64,000 nucleotides of DNA from Micromonospora carbonacea (lineage in GTDB: Bacteria > Actinomycetota > Actinomycetes > Mycobacteriales > Micromonosporaceae), in contig NZ_JACHMZ010000001.1 of the NCBI RefSeq assembly GCF_014205165.1, positions 5,066,501 to 5,130,500 on the forward strand, written 5' to 3'. The notes below the pieces were generated by a model, which saw nothing but the letters and a program-made list of their open reading frames with translations, made no database searches and had not been told where the DNA came from. A program made the translations under genes and the position numbers. Positions 51,110 through 61,720 of the stretch are shown piece after piece; within the stretch, counting starts at the first letter, position 1; each line of letters starts with the position of its first letter.

Positions 51110-51189
51110 TCGCCGGGCCGGCGTCGGGCGGGGCGGCCGGTGCCCGGCGACGCCGGCGACACCGGGGCGCGGCCTCGGCCGACCGGTTG

Positions 51190-51218
51190 TTGCCGACCCC
51201 CTTCCGCTGTGCCATCGT
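51190..51218 (+). promoter_or_regulatory. Promoter of the STAS gene
   Basis: TTGCCG (51190-51195) and CATCGT (51213-51218) are spaced by 17 bases. The -10-like element ends seven bases before the GTG at 51226, so the message would start close to the start codon. Confidence 0.4.
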
Positions 51219-51225
51219 GTTCTGC

Positions 51226-51540
51226 GTGGATCAAGGGGGTGCCGCTCCCGTCTTCTCCGCCCGCACGGAGACCGACGGCGACCACATCCGCGTGGTGGTC
51301 GCCGGCGAGGTGGACATGGCCACCGCCGACACGATGCTCCAGGCTGCGCTGCGTGAGCCGGCCGGTCGGGTGACCCTCGACCTGCGGGGGGTCACGTTCT
51401 TCGACTCGGCGGCGATCCACGCCGTGGTCCGGCTCGCCCAGCGCTTCCCGGGCGCGCTCACCGTGCTGCCGTCGCGGCAGGTCCGCCGGGTGCTGGAGAT
51501 CTCCGGCCTGGCCGGTCAGGGGTGGGTCGCCCCCGCCTGA
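51226..51540 (+). CDS. STAS-domain anti-sigma factor antagonist
   Basis: This protein of about 104 residues (from the GTG at 51226) is a single STAS domain. The core is DHIRVVVAGEVDMATADTM, and the phosphorylatable serine lies in RGVTFFDSAAIHAVV. Such proteins bind RsbW-type kinases when unphosphorylated and free the sigma factor. It converges with the giant hybrid kinase gene, 57 bases apart, which encodes both an RsbW-like domain and a SpoIIE phosphatase domain. It is thus the likely substrate of that protein. No sigma factor is adjacent. The start is uncertain because no ribosome-binding site is visible. Confidence 0.9.
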   Translation: MDQGGAAPVFSARTETDGDHIRVVVAGEVDMATADTMLQAALREPAGRVTLDLRGVTFFDSAAIHAVVRLAQRFPGALTVLPSRQVRRVLEISGLAGQGWVAPA

Positions 51541-51597
51541 GCCCGGCCCGGTGGGGCCCCGGCCACCGCCCGGCGGCCCGGCCCGAGGCACCCGCGC

Positions 51598-54500
51598 TCA
51601 GTCCCGCAGCCGCCGGCTCAGCGTCACCTGCGTGCCCTCGGCGGTACGGCTGACCGTCAGGTCGCCGAGGGCCCTGATCAACGCCAGCCCGCGCCCGCGG
51701 AAGCCCGCGCCGGTCGACTCCCGCCACTGCCCGCTGTCCCGGATCGTCGCCACCACCGTGCCGTCGGCGATGGTCACCTCCACGCCGATGGTCGGCTCGG
51801 CCGGGGAGACCGGGTGCTCGATGGCGTTCGCCGCGGCCTCGGAGACCGCGACGGTGAGGTCGAACAGGTCGTTCTCGCCGACCCGGTGGGCGGTGAGGAA
51901 GTCCTCCAGCCGCCGGCGCAGCACGCTCAGCCGGGTGGGGTCGGCGGGCAGCCGCAGCGCGAACCGGTGCGGTTCGGTCGCCTCCAGCGCGAGCACCGCC
52001 ACGTCGTCGCGGCGGGGGCGCCCGGCGACCCGCGCCACGACCGCGTCGACCAGGTCGGCGACGTGCTCGCCGCCGGCGGCGTCGGCGCGGAGCTGCTCCA
52101 GGGCCGCGTCGAGGCCGAGCTGCCGGTCCTCGATCAGCCCGTCGGTGTAGAGCAGCAGCCGGGCCCCCGGGGCCAGCGCGTCGTCCACGGTCCGGTACGA
52201 CGCGCCGGGGATCGCGCCGACCGGCGGCCCGAGCGCGCGGTCGTGCAGGAACGCCACGTCGTCTCCTCGGATCAGCAGGGGGGACGGGTGCCCGGCGCTG
52301 GCATAGCGGAGCCGGCCGGTGCGGGGCGCGAAGCGCAGGCAGACCACGGTCGCGAAGGACGGCTGCTCCGCCGAGCCGACCAGCCGGTTGAGCCGGGTCA
52401 GCGACTCGCCGGGGTCGTAGCCCTCCAGCACGTACGCCCGCAGCGCGTTGCGGAGCTGGCCCATCGAGGCGGCGGCCCGCACGCCCTTGCCGACGACGTC
52501 GCCGATGACCAGGACCAGTTCGTCGTCGTCGAGCCGGATCACGTCGTACCAGTCGCCGCCGACCTCGGCGTCGGCGCTGCCGGGCAGGTAGCGGCTGGCC
52601 ACCACCGCGCCGGGCAGCCGGGGCAGCGACCGGGGCAGCAGGCTGTGCTGGAGGGTGGTGGCGATGCGGTGCTCGGCCTCGTAGAGCTGGGCGTTCTCCA
52701 GCCGCACGCCGACCAGCCGGGCGAGCTGGGTCAGCGCGGCGTGGCCGGGGTCGGCGGCGTCCTCGGCGTGCCCCCAGACCCGCAGCTCGCCCAGCGTCTC
52801 CCCGGCGCTGCCGGTCAACGGCAGCACGGCGGACGGTTCGACGGCGGCGGTCCCGCCGCCGTCTGCCTCGTAGCGGGCCCCGGTGGCGGTGGCCACCACC
52901 CGGACCGCCTCGGCGAGGCCGAGCGCGTGCCGGGCGGCCACCTGGAGCACCTCGGCGGTGGTGCGGGCGGTGTTCACGGCGACGGCGGCGTCGGCCAGGG
53001 CGCGCAGCCGCCGGATGATCTGCCCCCGGAGCTGCCCCAGCTCGACGTTCGCCCGGACCCGGGCGATCAGCTCCTCGCCGGAGAACGGTTTGGTCAGGTA
53101 GTCGTCCGCGCCGACGGCGAGGCCGGCGACGGCCTCCGCCGAGCCGGCCCGGGCCGACAGCAGCACGATCGGCACGTGCCGGGTGCGCGGGTCGGCGCGC
53201 AGCGCGGTCACCAGGCCGAAGCCGTCGAGCCGGGGCATCATCACGTCGGTGAGCACCAGGTCGAAGGGCGTCTCCACGGCCAGGCGCAGCGCCTCGACGC
53301 CGTCCGGCACGGCCACCACCTCCCACGACGCGCCCAGCAACCGGCTGACGTGTTCGCGCAGGTCGGCGTTGTCGTCGGCGACCAGGATGCGGCCCGCCGC
53401 GGCCCGCTCACCGCCGGTCGAGCCGGTCGCCGCGCCCGTCCCCCCGGCCGCGGGTTGGCCGGGCGTGCCGGTCCACAGCGCGGTCTCGGCCGCGAAGAGG
53501 CGGGCCTGCCCCAGTTCCGCCGGCTCGGCCGGCGCGTCGGCCGCGACCCGGTCGGCCGGCAGGTGGGCGGTGCCGAACGGCACGGTCACGACGAACGTGC
53601 TGCCCCCGTCGACGACGCTGCGCGCCTCGGCCCGGCCGCCGTGCATCTCCACCAGCTCCCGGACCAGCGCCAGCCCGATCCCGGTGCCCTCGTGGGTGCG
53701 GGAGCGGACGCCGGGGACCCGGTGGAACCGCTCGAAGACGTGCGGCAGCTCCTCGGGCGCGATGCCGACACCGGTGTCGGCGACCTCCAGCCGGGCCGCG
53801 CCGTCCACCGCCCGGACGCGGACCCGGACCTCGCCGTCGAAGGTGAACTTGACCGCATTGGCGACGAGGTTGAGCACGACCTTCTCCCACATGTCCCGGT
53901 CGACGTGGACCGGCGCGGGCAGCGGCGGGCAGTCGACGACCAGGCGCAGGCCGGCGCGTTCGGTGGCCGAGCGGAAGGTGCTGGCCAGCCGGGCGGTGTA
54001 GTCGGCCAGGTCGGTGGGCTGGTAGTGGGCGGCGAGCCGGCCGGACTCCAGGCGGGAGAAGTCGAGCACGGTGTTGACCAGCTTGAGCAGGCGCAGCGCG
54101 TTGCGGTGCATCATGGTGAGCCGGTCGAGGTGGGGGTCGGGCAACGTCGGGTCGGCGAGCAGCTCCTCCAGCGGGCCCAGCACGAGGGTCAGCGGGGTGC
54201 GGAACTCGTGGCTGACGTTGGCGAAGAAGCTCGTCTTGGCGCGGTCCAGCGCGGCCAGCTCGGCCGCCCGGGCCCGCTCCTGCTCGTACGCCCGCTGCCG
54301 GCCCACGGCGCGGGAGAGCTGGGCGGCGATCAGGTCGAAGAAGGTGCGGTACTCGTCGGTGAGCGGCAGCCGGGCGGAGACGCCCACGACGAGCGCGCCC
54401 ACCGGCTCGTGGGTCGCGGTGACCGGCAGCACCAGCGCCCGCGCGGCCGTGCCGGCGTCGAGGTGCGGCAGCAGGTCGGCCGCGTCGATGGTGGTGGCGG

Positions 54501-55308
54501 ACCCGCCGTCGGCGACCCGGCTCACGACCGCCGTGGCCGCCTCGGTGGCGTCGCCGCCGCCGCGCCCGCCGGGGGCGGGCGGCCCGGTGCCGCTGCGCCC
54601 GGCGAGGGTGAGCCGCCCCGCGTCGTCGCGGAGGTAGATCAGGGCGAACGGCACGTCCGCCCGGTGCTGGTCGAGCACCCCGGCGGCGGCCCGGCCCAGG
54701 GCCGCGACGTCCTCCGCCTCGGCCAGCTCGGAGCCCAGCTCGGCCAGGGCGCGCAGCCGGCGCTCGCCGAGCACCCGCCCGGTGGTCTCGTTGACGAGGC
54801 AGAGGACGCCGTCGATGCCGCCGTCGGCGGCGCGGATCGGGTCGTACGAGATGTCGAAGTAGACGTCCTCCAGGAAGCCGTGCCGGTGCAGCACGAAGGG
54901 GTGGTTCTCGCCCCGGTAGGGCTCGCCGGTCTTGTGCACCGAGTCCAGCAGGGGCCCGAGGACGTCCCAGGTCTCCCGCCAGTGCTCGTGGGCGGGCTGG
55001 CCGACGGCGTGGGGGTGCTTGTCGCCGATGGTCGGCAGGTAGGCGTCGTTGTAGAAGGCGCGGTGCTCCGGGCCCCAGAACATGACGATCTGCGCCCGGG
55101 AGGAGAGCATCATGGCGACCGCGTGGCACAGCGCCGGTGGCCAGCCGGACGGGGCACCGAGCGGGCTGGCCGCCCAGTCGAAGCGGAGCAGGCGTTCCCC
55201 CATCTCGCCGCCGGCGGCACAGGCGGCCGTGAGCAGCGGCGGGAACGCCTCCTCGACGGTCCCGCCGGACGGATGCAGCCCGTCCTCGCCCCCCTGGGCC
55301 GAGCTCAT
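51598..55308 (-). CDS. Hybrid histidine kinase with receiver, SpoIIE phosphatase and RsbW-like kinase domains
   Basis: The protein has 1236 residues and no membrane segment. In order: a PAS-like domain (about 20-185), a GAF-like domain (about 190-340), a histidine kinase core with NVSHEFRTPLTLVLGPLEEL (H367 as phosphoacceptor) and ATPase motifs (NLVANAVKFT, VADTGVGI, GTGIGLALV), a receiver domain (DDNADLREH; D688 in TDVMMPRLDG), a second GAF-like domain (about 785-890), a PP2C/SpoIIE phosphatase (GGDWYDV with D919; RRDDVAVLAL), and a C-terminal RsbW/HATPase_2 kinase (SEAAANAIEH with N1161). The ATG follows GGGAGG. Phosphatase and anti-sigma kinase in one chain, headed by a phosphorelay, could set the state of the STAS protein next door. 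Confidence 0.9.
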   Translation of the reverse strand: MSSAQGGEDGLHPSGGTVEEAFPPLLTAACAAGGEMGERLLRFDWAASPLGAPSGWPPALCHAVAMMLSSRAQIVMFWGPEHRAFYNDAYLPTIGDKHPHAVGQPAHEHWRETWDVLGPLLDSVHKTGEPYRGENHPFVLHRHGFLEDVYFDISYDPIRAADGGIDGVLCLVNETTGRVLGERRLRALAELGSELAEAEDVAALGRAAAGVLDQHRADVPFALIYLRDDAGRLTLAGRSGTGPPAPGGRGGGDATEAATAVVSRVADGGSATTIDAADLLPHLDAGTAARALVLPVTATHEPVGALVVGVSARLPLTDEYRTFFDLIAAQLSRAVGRQRAYEQERARAAELAALDRAKTSFFANVSHEFRTPLTLVLGPLEELLADPTLPDPHLDRLTMMHRNALRLLKLVNTVLDFSRLESGRLAAHYQPTDLADYTARLASTFRSATERAGLRLVVDCPPLPAPVHVDRDMWEKVVLNLVANAVKFTFDGEVRVRVRAVDGAARLEVADTGVGIAPEELPHVFERFHRVPGVRSRTHEGTGIGLALVRELVEMHGGRAEARSVVDGGSTFVVTVPFGTAHLPADRVAADAPAEPAELGQARLFAAETALWTGTPGQPAAGGTGAATGSTGGERAAAGRILVADDNADLREHVSRLLGASWEVVAVPDGVEALRLAVETPFDLVLTDVMMPRLDGFGLVTALRADPRTRHVPIVLLSARAGSAEAVAGLAVGADDYLTKPFSGEELIARVRANVELGQLRGQIIRRLRALADAAVAVNTARTTAEVLQVAARHALGLAEAVRVVATATGARYEADGGGTAAVEPSAVLPLTGSAGETLGELRVWGHAEDAADPGHAALTQLARLVGVRLENAQLYEAEHRIATTLQHSLLPRSLPRLPGAVVASRYLPGSADAEVGGDWYDVIRLDDDELVLVIGDVVGKGVRAAASMGQLRNALRAYVLEGYDPGESLTRLNRLVGSAEQPSFATVVCLRFAPRTGRLRYASAGHPSPLLIRGDDVAFLHDRALGPPVGAIPGASYRTVDDALAPGARLLLYTDGLIEDRQLGLDAALEQLRADAAGGEHVADLVDAVVARVAGRPRRDDVAVLALEATEPHRFALRLPADPTRLSVLRRRLEDFLTAHRVGENDLFDLTVAVSEAAANAIEHPVSPAEPTIGVEVTIADGTVVATIRDSGQWRESTGAGFRGRGLALIRALGDLTVSRTAEGTQVTLSRRLRD

Positions 55309-56099: not shown

Positions 56100-56867
56100 T
56101 CACAGCGGGGTGACGTACGCGCCGGTGATCCCGCCGTCGACCACGAACTGCGCGGCCGTCATGAACGACGAGTCGTCGCTGGCCAGGAACGCCACCGCCG
56201 CGGCGATCTCCTCCGGCTGGCCGAACCGGCCCATCGGCACGTGCACGAGGCGGCGGGCGGCCCGCTCCGGGTCGGCGGCGAACAGCTCCATCAGCAGCGG
56301 GGTGGCGATCGGCCCGGGGCACAGCGCGTTGACCCGGATGCCCTCCCGGGCGAACTGCACGCCCAGCTCCCGGGTCATCGCCAGCACCCCGCCCTTGCTC
56401 GCCGTGTACGCGATCTGCGAGGTGGCCGCCCCCATCAGCGCCACGAACGACGCCGTGTTGATGATCGAGCCCTTGCCCTGCCGGCGCATGTGCGGGATCG
56501 CGTACTTGCAGCACAGGTAGACGCTCGTCGTGTTGACCCGCAGCACCCGCTCCCAGGCGTCGAGCCCCGTCTCCAGGATCGAGTCGTCGTCGGGCGGGGA
56601 GATGCCGGCGTTGTTGAACGCCACGTCCACCCGCCCGTGCCGCTGCGCCACGCCGTCGAACAGGTCCCGCACGGCCGCCTCGTCGGCCACGTCGCAGGCG
56701 ACGAACTCGCCGCCCACCTCCTGCGCGGCCCGCTCGCCCGCCGCCGCGTCGACGTCGACGCAGACCACCCGCGCCCCCTCGGCGGCGAACCGCCGCGCGG
56801 TGGCCAGCCCGATCCCGCTGCCCGCCCCGGTCACCACCGCGACCCGGTCCTCAAGCCGTCCCTGCAT
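56100..56867 (-). CDS. Short-chain dehydrogenase/reductase
   Basis: This 255-residue classical SDR has TGAGSGIG as the nucleotide loop and NNAG at strand four. The catalytic serine is in INTASF, and the active-site YxxxK reads YTASK. An aspartate after the second strand (VCVDVDAAAGERA) favours NAD over NADP. It follows the aldehyde dehydrogenase gene with one base between stop and ATG, so they are coupled. In this context it probably oxidises a hydroxyl intermediate, but the substrate is unknown. Confidence 0.9.
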   Translation of the reverse strand: MQGRLEDRVAVVTGAGSGIGLATARRFAAEGARVVCVDVDAAAGERAAQEVGGEFVACDVADEAAVRDLFDGVAQRHGRVDVAFNNAGISPPDDDSILETGLDAWERVLRVNTTSVYLCCKYAIPHMRRQGKGSIINTASFVALMGAATSQIAYTASKGGVLAMTRELGVQFAREGIRVNALCPGPIATPLLMELFAADPERAARRLVHVPMGRFGQPEEIAAAVAFLASDDSSFMTAAQFVVDGGITGAYVTPL

Positions 56868-56868
56868 C

Positions 56869-58233
56869 TCACTCCTCCGTGCTGATGAACACGTTCTTGA
56901 CGTCGGTGAAGGCGTGCAGCGCGTCCGGGCCCAGCTCGCGGCCCAGCCCGGAGCGCTTCATCCCGCCGAACGGGGTCCAGTACCGCACCGAGGAGTGCGA
57001 GTTGACGCTGAGGTTGCCCGCCTCGACCGCCCGCGCCATCCGCAACGCCCGGCCCACGTCCCGGGTCCAGACCGAGCCGGACAGGCCGTACTCGGTGTCG
57101 TTGGCCAGCCGGACCGCGTCCGCCTCGTCGTCGAAGGGGAGCACCGACACGACCGGGCCGAAGATCTCCTCCCGCCAGTGCCGGTCGGCCGGGGAGTCGG
57201 CGAGCAGCACCGTCGGGGCGTGCCAGAAGCCGGGGCCGTCGGGGCGGGAGCCGGTGAACGCCACCCGCGCCCCGTCGACGTACCCGGCGACCCGGTCCCG
57301 CTGGGCGGCGGAGATCAGCGGGCCCATCTCGGCCGTCTCCCGCGCCGGGTCCTCCACCCGCAGCGCCCGCACGGCCGGCTCCAGCAGCTCCAGGAACCGG
57401 TCGTACGCCGGGCGCTGCACCAGGATCCGCGACCGGGCGCAGCAGTCCTGGCCGGCGTTGTCGAAGACGGCGTACGGCGCGGTGGCCGCCGCCCGCTCCA
57501 GGTCGGCGTCGGCGAAGACGACGTTCGCGCTCTTGCCGCCCAGCTCCAGGGTCACCCGCTTCACCTGCGCGGCGCAGCCGGCCATGATCCGGGTGCCGAC
57601 CTCGGTGGACCCGGTGAAGCACACCTTGCGGACGGCCGGATGGGTGACGAACCGCTCGCCGACCACGTCGCCGCGGCCCGGCAGCACGGTGAACACGTCC
57701 TCGGGCAGGCCGGCGTCGCGGCCCAGCTCGGCCAGGCGCAGCGCGGTCAGCGGGGTCAGCTCGGCCGGCTTGAGCACCACCGTGTTGCCGGCGGCGAGCG
57801 CCGGGGCGAACCCCCAGGCGGCGATGGGCATCGGGAAGTTCCACGGCACGATCACCCCGACCACGCCCAGCGGCTCGTGGAAGGTGACGTCCAGCCCGCC
57901 GGGCACGGGGATCTGCCGCCCGGTCAGCCGCTCCGGCGCGCCCGCGTAGTAGTCGAGCACGTCGCGGACGTTGCCGGCCTCCCAGCGGGCGTTGCCGATG
58001 GTGTGCCCCGAGTTGCGCACCTCCAGCAGCGCCAGCTCCTCCAGGTGCGCGTCGACCAGGGCGGCGAACCGCCGCAGCAGGCGCGCCCGCTCCCCCGGCG
58101 CGACGTCGCGCCACCGCGGAAACGCGGCGGCGGCCCGCCCAATGGCGGCATCGACCTCGCCCTCCCCCGCAGCGACGACCTCCCCCACCACCGTTCCGCT
58201 GGCGGGATTGACCACCCGCGTCACGTCCCCCAC
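56869..58233 (-). CDS. NAD(P)-dependent aldehyde dehydrogenase
   Basis: This protein of about 454 residues belongs to the betaine-aldehyde/gamma-aminobutyraldehyde dehydrogenase group. Motifs are VPWNFPMPIAAWG (cofactor site), LELGGKSANVVF (catalytic glutamate) and NAGQDCCARSR, with C264 as the probable nucleophile. GPVVSVLPFDDE and FGGMKRSGLGREL close the domain. I chose the GTG at 58233 after GGGAGGGG; a GTG at 58224 is possible. It sits downstream of the glutamine-synthetase-like gene, separated by a long inverted repeat. Together they suggest oxidation of a gamma-glutamylated aminoaldehyde. Confidence 0.92.
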   Translation of the reverse strand: MGDVTRVVNPASGTVVGEVVAAGEGEVDAAIGRAAAAFPRWRDVAPGERARLLRRFAALVDAHLEELALLEVRNSGHTIGNARWEAGNVRDVLDYYAGAPERLTGRQIPVPGGLDVTFHEPLGVVGVIVPWNFPMPIAAWGFAPALAAGNTVVLKPAELTPLTALRLAELGRDAGLPEDVFTVLPGRGDVVGERFVTHPAVRKVCFTGSTEVGTRIMAGCAAQVKRVTLELGGKSANVVFADADLERAAATAPYAVFDNAGQDCCARSRILVQRPAYDRFLELLEPAVRALRVEDPARETAEMGPLISAAQRDRVAGYVDGARVAFTGSRPDGPGFWHAPTVLLADSPADRHWREEIFGPVVSVLPFDDEADAVRLANDTEYGLSGSVWTRDVGRALRMARAVEAGNLSVNSHSSVRYWTPFGGMKRSGLGRELGPDALHAFTDVKNVFISTEE

Positions 58234-58252
58234 CCTGCCCCTCCCTCTCCAG

Positions 58253-58333
58253 CTCCCGCGATCTTGCAGTTTCGGCCCCCACAAATGCCGCCAAGCTCCC
58301 ATAGCAGGGGCCCCAACTGCAAGATCGCGGGAG
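58253..58333. repeat. Long inverted repeat between the GS-like and aldehyde dehydrogenase genes
   Basis: Perfect 19-base arms (58253-58271 and 58315-58333) read CTCCCGCGATCTTGCAGTT and its complement. They enclose 43 bases that contain a second, smaller GGCCCC/GGGGCC pair. It could fold into a large cruciform or RNA hairpin. As I remember them, similar GCGATCTTGCA sequences recur in Micromonospora intergenic regions, so this may be one copy of a dispersed REP-like family. Confidence 0.85.
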
Positions 58334-58378
58334 AGAAAAGGGGTGGGTGGGACGGGCGGGGGCGGATGGGGGGTGGGT

Positions 58379-59743
58379 TCAGAGGCGCTCGAAGCCGCGT
58401 TGGAGTTCCCAGTCCGTCACCGCGGCGTCGAAGGCGCGCAGCTCGATGCGTGCCATGTTGGCGTAGTGGGCGTGCACCTCGTCGCCGAAGACCGCGCGGG
58501 CGATCGTCGACGACTCCCACAGGCCGAGGGCGTCGCGCAGGGTGCCGGGGACCCGCTCGGCGGCCGGATCGTCGTACGCGTTGCCGGTGCACTCCTCGCC
58601 CAGCTCCAGCTCCCGCTCGATGCCGTGCACCGCCCCCGCCACCAGGGCGGCGATCGCCAGGTACGGGTTGACGTCCGCCCCCGGCACCCGGTTCTCCACC
58701 CGCATGCCCTGGCCATGGCCGACCAGCCGCAGCGCGCAGGTGCGGTTGTCGGTGCCCCAGCGCAGCGCCGTCGGGGCGAACGAGCCCGGCTGGTAACGCT
58801 TGTAGGAGTTGACGTTCGGGGCGAACAGCAGGCCGAACTCCCGCATCGTGTCGAGCAGCCCGGCCAGCACCCGCTGCCCGGTGACGCTCAGGTGCGCCGG
58901 CCCGTCGCCGAGCATCGCCGAGCGCCCGTCGGCATCGCGCAGCGAGAAGTGGATGTGGCAGGAGTTGCCCTCCCGCGCGTTCGGCTTGGCCATGAAGGTG
59001 ATCGACATGCCCTCCTGGGCGGCGATCTCCTTCGCCCCGTTCTTGTAGATCACGTGGTGGTCGGCGCAGGCCACCGCCTCGTCGTAGCGGAAGGCGATCT
59101 CGTGCTGGCCGAGGTTGCACTCGCCCTTCGCGCTCTCCGGGGTCAGGCCCGCGCCGGCCATCTCGGTGCGGATGCGCCGCAGCAGCGGCTCCACCCGGGA
59201 CGTGCCGAGCAGCGAATAGTCCACGTTGTATTGGTTTGCCGGGGTCAGCTCGCGGTAGCCGCGCCGCCACGCGTCCTCGTACGAGTCGCGGTAGAGGACG
59301 AACTCCAGCTCCGTGCCCGCGTACGCGGTCAGGCCGTGCGCGGCGAGCCGGTCGAGCTGGCGGCGCAGGATCTGCCGGGGCGAGGCGGCCACCGGGCCGG
59401 ACCCGTCCAACCACGCCAGGTCGGCCAGGAGCATCGCCGTCCCCGGTTGCCATGGCACCCGGCGCAGCGTCTCCAGGTCGGGCACCATGGCGAAGTCGCC
59501 GTACCCGCGCTCCCAGCTCGACATCGCGTAGCCGTCGACGGTGTTCATGTCGACGTCGACGGCGAGCAGGTAGTTGCACCCCTCGCTGCCGTTCTCCACG
59601 ACCTGGTCGAGGAAGAACGGCGCGTGGAACCGCTTGCCCTGCAACCGGCCCTGCATGTCGACCAGGGCCAGCACCACGGTGTCGAGCTTGCCGGCGGCGA
59701 CCGCCGCCCGTAACTCTTCGAGGGACAGCGGTGCTCTGCTCAT
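58379..59743 (-). CDS. Glutamine-synthetase-like gamma-glutamylamine ligase
   Basis: The protein has 454 residues. It has the GS fold but belongs to the GlnA3/GlnA4/PuuA-like group that attaches glutamate to polyamines or ethanolamine rather than ammonia. Visible motifs are YAGTELEFVLYRDSYE (metal-site glutamates), KGECNLGQHEIAFRYDEAV, the ATP-binding segment GNSCHIHFSL, and ENRVPGADVNPYLAIAALVA. True GlnA residues for ammonia binding and the adenylylation loop are not evident. The ATG follows GGAGG. With an aldehyde dehydrogenase, an SDR and an APC permease alongside, a pathway for using an amine as a carbon or nitrogen source is likely. The amine is unknown. Confidence 0.9.
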   Translation of the reverse strand: MSRAPLSLEELRAAVAAGKLDTVVLALVDMQGRLQGKRFHAPFFLDQVVENGSEGCNYLLAVDVDMNTVDGYAMSSWERGYGDFAMVPDLETLRRVPWQPGTAMLLADLAWLDGSGPVAASPRQILRRQLDRLAAHGLTAYAGTELEFVLYRDSYEDAWRRGYRELTPANQYNVDYSLLGTSRVEPLLRRIRTEMAGAGLTPESAKGECNLGQHEIAFRYDEAVACADHHVIYKNGAKEIAAQEGMSITFMAKPNAREGNSCHIHFSLRDADGRSAMLGDGPAHLSVTGQRVLAGLLDTMREFGLLFAPNVNSYKRYQPGSFAPTALRWGTDNRTCALRLVGHGQGMRVENRVPGADVNPYLAIAALVAGAVHGIERELELGEECTGNAYDDPAAERVPGTLRDALGLWESSTIARAVFGDEVHAHYANMARIELRAFDAAVTDWELQRGFERL

Positions 59744-59766
59744 GCGCGGGCCTCCATCACCAAGGT

Positions 59767-61359
59767 CTACTGCCTGACCGGATCACCGTCAATGCCCGCC
59801 CCGGGCGCGTCGGCAAACCCCTCGACCGTGCGGCGGGGGCCGGTGAACCACGTGCGCGCCGAGGCGTACCACCAGACGGCCACCACCAGCAGCACCCCGC
59901 CCACGGCGAGCGGCGCGTAGTTGACCGCCGACCAGCTGAAGTCGGCGTGACCGGGCACCCCGGCGGGCACGATCGGCAGCACGAAGTACACCGAGATGAT
60001 CACGATCTCGACCACCGCGACCCAGCCGAGCAGCCTGTAGCGGCGGCCCAGCGTCCACGGGCCGGGGGTGAACCGGTCGCCCATCCGCAGCCGCAGCACG
60101 ATCGGAATGACGAAGGAGAGGTAGAGCCCGATCACCGCGACCGAGACCACCGCGTAGAAGGCGACCGGGATGCCGGACGGGCTCTCGTAGAGCGCCGGCA
60201 GGGTGAGCACCAGCCCGGCCACGGTCGCGCCGACGATCGCGTTGACCGGGGTGCCGTTGCGGTCCACCTTCGACCAGAGCCGCCAGCCCGGCACCGCCCG
60301 GTCCCGGCTGAACGCGTACGCCATCCGCGACATCGACGTCACGCAGCTCATGCCGCAGAAGAACTGCCCGATGGTGGAGACGATGATGACGGTCTTGAAG
60401 AAGAACGGGGTGAGCGCCGTTTCGAAGATCGCCCCGGAGAACCCGCCGGCCGCGTTGATCGCGTCCACGTCGGTGGCGGCGAACAGGAACGCGAGCAGCA
60501 GGATCCAGCCGCCCACCGCCGAATAGAAGATCGACCGCCACAGCCCCTGCGCGGCGGCCTTCGACGCGCCCCGGGTCTCCTCCGACACGTGCGCGCAGGC
60601 GTCGAAGCCGGTGATCGTGTACTGGGTGAGCAGGAAGCCCAGCGGCAGCACGTAGAACCAGAAGGTCAACCCGCCGGTGCCGCCGTCGCCGAAGCCGGAG
60701 TTGTTGAACCGCTCGGTGAAGACGAACTGGAAGCTCTGGTGCCGGTCCGGGACGAACACCAGGATGGCGACGACCGCCGCCGCGCCGGCCACGTGCCACC
60801 ACACCGAGACGTTCTGGAGTACGTCGATGATCCGGTGCCCGAAGATGTTGATCAGCCCGTGCAGCGCCAGAATGATCACGAACAGCACGAACGCCTGCCG
60901 CAGCGTCCCCGCCCAGCCGTCGAACAGCGCCGACAGGGTGAGATTGAGGAACGTGGCGCAGCCGTAGTCGACCGACGCGGTGACCGCCACCAGGCCGATC
61001 AGATTGAGCCAGCCCGTGAACCAGCCGTGCACCGGCCGGCCCATCTTCGCCGCCCACCAGTAGATGCCGCCCGCCGTCGGATACGCCGACACCAGCTCGG
61101 CCAGGCAGAATCCGATGACCAGGATGAACAGCGAGATCAGCGGCCAGCCCCAGGAGATGGCGACCGGCCCGCCGTTGTTCCACGCCTGGCCGAACGTGGT
61201 GAAGCAGCCGGCCAGGATCGAGATGATCGAGAACGAGATCGCGAAGTTGGAGAAGCCGCTCCACTTGCGGCGCAACTCCTGCTGGTAACCGAGTTCGGCG
61301 AGCCGGCGGGCGTCGTCGTCCATCGGCTGATCGGCGGTCGGTGCGGGCGTCGTGGCCAC
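59767..61359 (-). CDS. APC-family amino acid/amine permease
   Basis: This integral membrane importer of about 530 residues has twelve predicted helices. The N-terminus carries the family start RLAELGYQQELRRKWSGFSN, as in GabP/ethanolamine-type permeases. GGIYWWAAKMGRPVHGWFTG and TGFDACAHVSEETRGA are typical of helices 3 and 8. I chose the GTG at 61359, with AGGAGG in ideal position; a longer frame exists upstream. It precedes the GS-like gene by 23 bases, so the two are almost certainly one operon. Its substrate is probably the amine that the ligase then gamma-glutamylates. Confidence 0.92.
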   Translation of the reverse strand: MATTPAPTADQPMDDDARRLAELGYQQELRRKWSGFSNFAISFSIISILAGCFTTFGQAWNNGGPVAISWGWPLISLFILVIGFCLAELVSAYPTAGGIYWWAAKMGRPVHGWFTGWLNLIGLVAVTASVDYGCATFLNLTLSALFDGWAGTLRQAFVLFVIILALHGLINIFGHRIIDVLQNVSVWWHVAGAAAVVAILVFVPDRHQSFQFVFTERFNNSGFGDGGTGGLTFWFYVLPLGFLLTQYTITGFDACAHVSEETRGASKAAAQGLWRSIFYSAVGGWILLLAFLFAATDVDAINAAGGFSGAIFETALTPFFFKTVIIVSTIGQFFCGMSCVTSMSRMAYAFSRDRAVPGWRLWSKVDRNGTPVNAIVGATVAGLVLTLPALYESPSGIPVAFYAVVSVAVIGLYLSFVIPIVLRLRMGDRFTPGPWTLGRRYRLLGWVAVVEIVIISVYFVLPIVPAGVPGHADFSWSAVNYAPLAVGGVLLVVAVWWYASARTWFTGPRRTVEGFADAPGAGIDGDPVRQ

Positions 61360-61426
61360 TGCACACCTCCTGGCGAGGATTGCCGGAAACGCGTGCGCCC
61401 GAGTCTCGTCCCGCCGATCACGATGG

Positions 61427-61720
61427 TCAATACGCCACGGCCTGTCGCCCCGGACGCGCCGCCGACGGACGCGGGGCATCGGCCAACCGGCGCAGCCCCG
61501 CCGGCTGCACGAAGATCGAGCGGCGGGCCACGGCGTCGCCCCACGCGTCGACCTCGTAGCCGTCCAGCCACAGCCACCCGTGGTAGGTGTGCCAGTCCTC
61601 GTGGACCCGGATCACCCGGAAGAGGATCGGCCGGACGAACTGCACGCTGGCGGCCCGCGTGACGTGCAGCAGGTCCCCGCACCTCAGCTCCGCGTACTTC
61701 GACGGGTGTTGGCCCGTCAC
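61427..61720 (-). CDS. Small protein, paralog of the adjacent 88-residue protein
   Basis: This 97-residue protein begins VTGQHPSKYA. The core LRCGDLLHVTRAASVQFVR, FRVIRVHEDWHTYHGWLWL and DGYEVDAWG looks like an all-beta, SH3- or OB-like fold. Pairwise reading against the upstream neighbour shows the same order: GD-hydrophobic at the start, a central R(V/L)xV strand, then WxxL(D/E)G. The GTG overlaps the upstream stop (GTGA). Related genes may accompany XRE/DUF397 loci in actinomycetes, but I know of no described function. An RNA- or DNA-binding role is a guess. Confidence 0.65.
   Translation of the reverse strand: MTGQHPSKYAELRCGDLLHVTRAASVQFVRPILFRVIRVHEDWHTYHGWLWLDGYEVDAWGDAVARRSIFVQPAGLRRLADAPRPSAARPGRQAVAY

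Follow-up and report, generated by a model that had tools for sequence, protein, structure and literature searches.

Known single-chain regulators of STAS phosphorylation

The joining of a STAS kinase and a STAS phosphatase on one chain is already known from HsbR, CrsR, SypE and Rv1364c, and with it the parts and the logic of the system considered here. In HsbR-HsbA of Pseudomonas aeruginosa and CrsR-CrsA of Shewanella oneidensis, a single chain made of a receiver, a PP2C phosphatase and a kinase/anti-sigma domain acts on a partner antagonist; HsbR is described as phosphorylating HsbA while its receiver is unphosphorylated and dephosphorylating it once the receiver is phosphorylated, it receives its input from separate hybrid kinases by way of HptB, and the kinase domain of CrsR is described as binding the sigma factor (PMC6482189). 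Here we analyze a locus in a 64,000-nucleotide stretch of the actinomycete Micromonospora carbonacea (contig NZ_JACHMZ010000001.1, positions 5,066,501 to 5,130,500; hereafter the window), where a 1236-residue hybrid protein is encoded tail to tail with a STAS protein. What appears to be new here is that a histidine kinase is joined in one chain to the known receiver-PP2C-STAS-kinase scheme.

Other described systems share parts of this arrangement. SypE of Vibrio fischeri carries a serine kinase, a receiver and a serine phosphatase on one chain with one STAS-type substrate, SypA, whose phosphorylation its kinase domain promotes; unlike the hybrid, it has the order kinase-receiver-phosphatase and, as described, no histidine kinase on the chain (PMC3610818). 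The REC-PP2C-STYK proteins of Campylobacterota (REC, receiver) are presented as bifunctional PP2C-kinases with an N-terminal receiver, their target STAS proteins being predicted from gene neighborhood, and differ in that their authors assume a separate histidine kinase (PMC9239204). Rv1364c of Mycobacterium tuberculosis (3ke6, 3k3c), the best PDB match for both ends of the hybrid, has PAS, PP2C and RsbW-like domains in one chain; its STAS domain lies on that same chain and it has no histidine kinase or receiver, the reverse of the hybrid, and its kinase domain is stated to phosphorylate its STAS domain (PMC9138534). A route from histidine kinase to receiver-PP2C to STAS, as in the hybrid, is found in RsfS/RsfR of Mycobacterium smegmatis and RsbK/RsbY of Bacillus cereus; unlike the hybrid, these are separate chains, and the account in PMC10950880 mentions no kinase domain on the phosphatase. 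According to the same source, phosphorylation has opposite signs in the two, RsfR losing and RsbY gaining phosphatase activity.

The hybrid shares with the HsbR/CrsR type a receiver, a PP2C domain and an RsbW-like kinase in one chain, a likeness drawn from domain descriptions, along with a dedicated STAS antagonist gene that stays linked to it. It is unlike them in that a histidine kinase and PAS/GAF sensors precede the receiver on the chain and that a GAF domain separates receiver from PP2C. By analogy, its most likely mode of action is that of HsbR/CrsR, with the histidine kinase included in the chain. Among actinomycete proteins, OsaC of Streptomyces coelicolor combines GAF/PAS sensor domains and a phosphatase with anti-sigma action; to our knowledge, it carries no fused histidine kinase or receiver. 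OsaC is named in PMC12143880 and PMC9739842. In searches of the open-access literature, outside which most subscription journals lie, some of them aimed at the fusion, we found no studied fusion of histidine kinase, receiver, PP2C and STAS kinase, nor its form without the histidine kinase and receiver. Database names of such hybrids are mostly "SpoIIE family protein phosphatase" or "histidine kinase".

Domain architecture of the hybrid and its STAS neighbor

A sequence-only reading of the window had proposed the hybrid's length, its series of domains and four active-site residues (H367, D688, D919 and N1161). All of these are confirmed by the open reading frame, by Pfam and, for the PAS domain and the second GAF domain, by predicted structures:

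51598..55308, minus strand: hybrid protein, PAS-GAF-HisKA-HATPase_c-REC-GAF-PP2C-RsbW-like kinase, 1236 residues from an ATG start (open reading frame, Pfam and motifs)
54784..55203, minus strand: PAS domain, about residues 36-175 (AlphaFold2 model, mean predicted local distance difference test score, pLDDT, 94.4; best PDB match the Rv1364c PAS, 3k3c)
54304..54783, minus strand: GAF domain 1, about residues 176-335 (Pfam GAF_3 at 222-335, E 5e-7; predicted model)
54040..54240, minus strand: HisKA, residues 357-423, phospho-acceptor H367 (Pfam E 1e-15)
53575..53901, minus strand: HATPase_c of the histidine kinase, residues 470-578 (Pfam E 2.5e-33)
53053..53388, minus strand: receiver, residues 641-752, phospho-acceptor D688 (Pfam E 8e-24)
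52969..53079, minus strand: long helix out of the receiver, residues 744-780 (predicted model; contains the junction of the histidine kinase-receiver deletion of L161 and L162, below)
52744..52959, minus strand: GAF-like domain 2, about residues 784-855 (model, block pLDDT 79-92)
52639..52743, minus strand: helix into the phosphatase, residues 856-890 (predicted model)
51979..52608, minus strand: SpoIIE/PP2C phosphatase, about residues 901-1110, with D919, D937, D1056, D1101 and D1102 (Pfam SpoIIE at 927-1109, E 6e-49)
51616..51951, minus strand: RsbW/SpoIIAB-like serine kinase, residues 1120-1231, with E1157, N1161, D1191, G1193, G1205 and G1207 (Pfam HATPase_c_2 at 1120-1231, E 2e-23)
51187..51540, plus strand: gene of the STAS protein (start as in the sequence-only reading, GTG 51217 or 51226 being likelier; STAS_2 and STAS matches)
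51406..51408, plus strand: predicted phosphoserine codon, S74 counted from TTG 51187, in the motif FFDSAAIH (aligns with the DS of SpoIIAA and RsbV)

The PAS-like domain and GAF 2 gave no Pfam match at 1e-3, and both folds are visible in the predicted structures; for GAF 1, GAF_3 lies above the cut-off and GAF_2 (203-335) below it. Structure comparison shows that the PP2C fold resembles those of Rv1364c, RssB, SpoIIE and SiaA, the PDB matches listed being mostly to receivers, such that absences from that list carry no weight. The C-terminal kinase domain can be aligned to RsbW and SpoIIAB over their N-box stretch. The H, N and D boxes of HisKA, HATPase_c and receiver are all intact, and the catalytic motifs of every enzymatic domain are intact and conserved; degenerate catalytic residues in the SpoIIE and RsbW-like domains were looked for and not found. 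We take the five PP2C aspartates to be metal ligands. In the predicted model, helices lead from the receiver to GAF 2 and on to PP2C, and coiled-coil linkers are described as transmitting signals to PP2C dimers (PMC12143880).

The STAS gene lies on the plus strand, with 57 bp between it and the hybrid gene on the minus strand, a spacing that had been given correctly, and matches to STAS_2 (E 7.5e-10) and STAS (E 3e-8) bear out the identity claimed for its product. Its start had been placed at TTG 51187; GTG 51217 or 51226 is probably right instead, because many ortholog matches start at residues 10-14. Against the NCBIfam model ant_ant_sig (TIGR00377), the protein scores 40 bits, below the 53.45 cut-off, and so falls outside that family. 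With its STAS domain and DS phosphoserine motif, it may work like a SpoIIAA/RsbV-type antagonist. An operon of the two genes in the window is rejected, as they are convergent.

Pairing of hybrid and STAS genes across genomes

The adjacency noted in the window recurs in most of the genus. Among 61 genomes (the own genome included), 55 hold a near full-length hybrid at 71-100% identity, two hold a form without histidine kinase and receiver, one holds fragments and three have no hybrid. The STAS ortholog (E < 1e-43) is present in 58 and absent from the same three, G012, G014 and G042, where the best STAS match reaches only 6e-9 to 2e-8. The two genes are both present or both absent in all 61 genomes, counts that are not phylogenetically independent; the three absences may represent few events. 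They are convergent in every one of the 58 genomes holding both, with a gap, measured between protein matches, of at most 150 bp in 52. The gap is 683-3627 bp in G020, G017, G059, G018, G022 and G025, and the convergent pair is still retained there. In the window, the pair sits between genes for a short-chain dehydrogenase/reductase (SDR) and map. In G012, these flanking genes are about 235 bp apart and the window's small PNPOx gene is missing along with the pair; in G014 and G042, neither hybrid nor STAS gene occurs in the 1.5 kb beyond map. The fragmentary hybrid, on contig C39 of G013, has a frameshift and lacks histidine kinase, receiver and PP2C, with the kinase motifs and the STAS gene remaining; G013 is a draft of 890 contigs, in which the damage is either decay or assembly error, and it is counted among the 58.

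The pattern extends beyond the genus. We surveyed the loci of 80 relatives (the best matches listed, not an exhaustive set, and loci related to each other), 35 of which have intact PP2C and kinase motifs, including one hybrid split by a frameshift (L007) and one without histidine kinase and receiver (L011). A STAS gene lies within 500 bp in 31 of these 35 versus 1 of the 45 others, which are mostly from other phyla and partly on short contigs; the sole STAS-adjacent locus among the 45 (L061) has a degenerate kinase motif. The five PP2C relatives without a kinase domain (L012, L014, L016, L068 and L080) have no STAS gene within that distance.

A tree of 34 proteins (midpoint root, long branches, the longest being L017) separates two sets, the window's clade and a related clade of 20. 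In the window's clade, STAS is convergent in 9 of 9 loci, seven of which are in the tree with the window. The related clade has an additional PAS domain between receiver and phosphatase (by Pfam, in all four of its proteins scanned; motifs of the other relatives were read from one alignment). Here, the stop codon of the hybrid shares bases with a start codon in 19 of 20 loci (ATGA, GTGA or TGATG), and the overlapping frame is a STAS protein in 18 of the 20. L052 falls outside the 18, its overlapping frame being only 27 codons long and its STAS match lying in a different frame; L074 has a convergent STAS gene instead. Rhodococcus ruber and Streptomyces fungicidicus plasmid records annotate the same overlap. 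On these gene distributions, the pairing is more than chance would give; a chance neighborhood of the STAS gene is rejected by the co-occurrence in the genus, the proximity of STAS genes in relatives and the stop/start overlap.

A further STAS gene lies upstream of the hybrid, on the opposite strand, in L019, L029, L054, L071 and the plasmid loci L170 and L172, with the motif YCDSTGI in the first three; some loci therefore have at least two STAS proteins. In a survey of 80 genomes of the phylum, with eight candidates scored in most genomes, the full domain pattern was found in one open reading frame in at least three genomes (the own genome, G098 and G134). Phage records yielded no place covering 80% of the hybrid protein.

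Conservation, selection and a natural deletion

The alignment covered 42 loci from the window's clade; some represent the same genome, L011 and L162 being a single contig. All 20 hybrid residues tested are unchanged in every ungapped row, except receiver S718, which is T in two. H367 is H in 38 of 38 ungapped rows; D645, D646, D688 and K740 of the receiver are kept in 39 of 39; and the six kinase-domain residues listed above are kept in 42 of 42, one row being gapped. The predicted STAS phosphoserine is S in 41 of 41 rows, window included (the STAS open reading frame was obtained from 40 of the 42 loci).

Ratios of nonsynonymous to synonymous substitution rates (dN/dS, NG86; seven chosen loci of the 42) were 0.12-0.20 for the receiver, 0.18-0.32 for PP2C, 0.18-0.31 for the C-terminal kinase, 0.21-0.35 for the histidine kinase, 0.26-0.47 for STAS, 0.31-0.58 for GAF 2, 0.29-0.84 for PAS and 0.54-1.09 for GAF 1. 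The receiver has the lowest value in six of the seven pairs, and GAF 1 evolves fastest in five, being overtaken by GAF 2 in L008 and by PAS in L136. By this measure, the enzymes are constrained and the sensing end is fast-diverging.

In two species, L161 (G015) and L162 (G019; the same open reading frame as L011, M. avicenniae), about residues 337-760 are deleted in frame, probably in one event because the junction is identical. At the join, the helix that follows GAF 1 is spliced to the one that follows the receiver. PP2C and kinase retain their motifs, with a dN/dS of 0.20 for PP2C and 0.13 for the kinase when the two species are compared, and the convergent STAS gene is still present. A PAS-GAF-GAF-PP2C-kinase protein with its STAS partner thus appears useful without the relay, which suggests a robust output module. 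The absence of histidine kinase and receiver as the ancestral state is rejected, since both are present in the 55 near full-length hybrids of the genus and in the more distant L005 and L009.

A proposed mechanism and its alternatives

We consider it probable that the hybrid serves a partner-switching system as its one-chain input and control unit, acting on the convergent STAS protein. Signals at the PAS/GAF domains would govern how H367 autophosphorylates and passes its phosphate to D688 of the same chain or of the other chain in a dimer. The receiver state would then be passed through helix 744-780, GAF 2 and helix 856-890 to PP2C, a path taken from the predicted model. PP2C would remove, and the C-terminal RsbW-like domain would add, phosphate on the conserved STAS serine, an opposition that we infer because the active sites are intact and the pairing is strict; the receiver would set the phosphorylated fraction of STAS. 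Unphosphorylated STAS would sequester the anti-sigma kinase and free a SigB/F-type sigma factor, that kinase being either the C-terminal domain of the hybrid itself, on the model of CrsR, or an RsbW homologue on another chain. The sequence-only reading had spoken of a whole partner-switching module: its domain assignments and STAS pairing stand, and "whole" goes too far, as STAS and sigma factor are separate chains. Its suggestion that a phosphorelay chooses between the two enzymes is plausible by the precedent of HsbR, RsbY and RsfR, qualified by a sign that varies among these and by the two species without histidine kinase and receiver.

Several observations weigh against this proposal. No SigBFG-type sigma gene lies near the pair in the window; the own genome has two SigBFG sigma factors above the cut-off, at 4320941 and 2774117, far from the window. 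Other substrates are possible, because the genome has 17 STAS matches (alongside 12 SpoIIE matches). In L009, L010, L013 and L066, the motifs are intact and the nearest 500 bp contain no STAS gene; on a Streptomyces sp. M54 plasmid, genes for STAS and ATP-binding proteins stand upstream of the hybrid, on the opposite strand, and no STAS match lies downstream; and a relative on a Mycobacterium gordonae plasmid, which has a SigB/F/G sigma gene upstream of the hybrid, has no STAS match in a 12-kb stretch at E 1e-3. The L161/L162 variant indicates that the phosphorelay is not indispensable. The closest solved relative, Rv1364c, has reportedly lost its kinase activity, according to the title of one study and against the statement in PMC9138534 that its kinase domain phosphorylates its STAS domain; intact motifs are therefore no proof of activity.

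The last point favors a division of labor in which the phosphatase alone acts on STAS, the RsbW-like domain serving for docking or as an anti-sigma module and phosphorylation falling to a separate RsbW homologue, with the hybrid an input arm like RsfS/RsfR or RsbP. Such an arrangement is found in Mycobacterium smegmatis, where RsfR is a receiver-PP2C protein and RsbW2 phosphorylates RsfB (PMC10950880), and the own genome has many further HATPase_c_2 matches, the total of 40 counting histidine kinases as well. We think this unlikely in view of the invariant E1157, N1161, D1191 and glycines, the low dN/dS of the kinase domain, also between the two species without histidine kinase, and the lack of a nearby STAS gene in all five kinase-less PP2C relatives. 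Least likely, in our estimation, is a hybrid that targets another STAS protein of the genome, its convergent neighbor being unlinked: the opposite strands, without an operon in the window, the number of STAS matches and the four relatives without a near STAS gene would fit, and against it stand the joint presence or absence in all 61 genus genomes, even across gaps of 0.7-3.6 kb in six of them, and the overlapping genes of the related clade.

The in-frame loss of histidine kinase and receiver, with the outputs still under selection, also fits a front end that signals to other regulators and not to PP2C and kinase in cis, the PAS/GAF domains reaching the output by the helix alone. PAS-histidine kinase-receiver is a separable unit, since it is found in hybrids of many phyla without PP2C/kinase outputs (best-segment identity 38-50% among the listed matches). 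We hold this to be quite improbable, given that the receiver is the most constrained domain in six of seven pairs, that the predicted helix runs from receiver through GAF 2 to PP2C, and that the sources cited above show receiver control of PP2C for RsfR and state it for RsbY and HsbR. A stronger version of the one-chain proposal, which we advance tentatively and rate below even chances, is a self-contained switch in which one chain senses, its own His-Asp relay flips the STAS kinase/phosphatase and the C-terminal kinase is also the anti-sigma factor; the species without histidine kinase would then be natural rewirings in which PAS/GAF drive the switch through one spliced helix, and only STAS and a sigma factor would be required besides the hybrid.

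Implications of the one-chain arrangement

If the one-chain proposal is true, every step from signal to STAS phosphorylation is carried by one polypeptide, which has a single STAS partner, and input, relay and both opposing enzymes could therefore be reconstituted from two proteins. The stop/start overlap of the related clade points directly to the STAS partner. The deletion of histidine kinase and receiver offers a natural contrast between receiver phosphorylation and helix transmission in setting the kinase/phosphatase balance, whose control is unsettled because RsfR and RsbY are described as responding with opposite signs (PMC10950880).

The architecture also suggests a signal destination for some orphan actinomycete hybrid kinases. 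S. coelicolor has three hybrid histidine kinases, SCO7327 among them, with cascades described as unclear and no histidine phosphotransfer (HPt) proteins noted (PMC9739842); a fused output would need no HPt. Two locus numbers from SCO7327 lies SCO7325, an RsbV homologue reported to activate SigB (PMC9739842, PMC8346170). SCO7327 may be a family member, as a candidate lead only.

Related genes elsewhere in the genome and the window

A second copy of the full architecture was not found in the own genome. The second-best own-genome match to the hybrid is a 707-residue SpoIIE, HATPase_c_2 and GAF_2 protein (PAS_4 below the cut-off) at 4302000-4305500, without histidine kinase or receiver. At 6750800-6758200, genes for RsbRD_N-STAS, STAS, HATPase, HATPase_c_2-SpoIIE, histidine kinase and REC-SpoIIE proteins stand in a row. 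By their domains, the RsbR/RsbS/RsbT-like genes, adjoining an unfused histidine kinase and REC-PP2C, would form a stressosome-like set, a counterpart like RsfS/RsfR. At 2773500-2778500, a SigBFG-type sigma gene lies near a gene that fuses STAS and HATPase_c_2 in 283 residues; the arrangement is similar to the SsdA/SipA pair described for Actinoplanes in PMC10733313. Within the window, genes for SDR, aldehyde dehydrogenase, glutamine-synthetase-like and amino-acid permease proteins follow one another on the minus strand at 56100-61479, with the look of amine catabolism.

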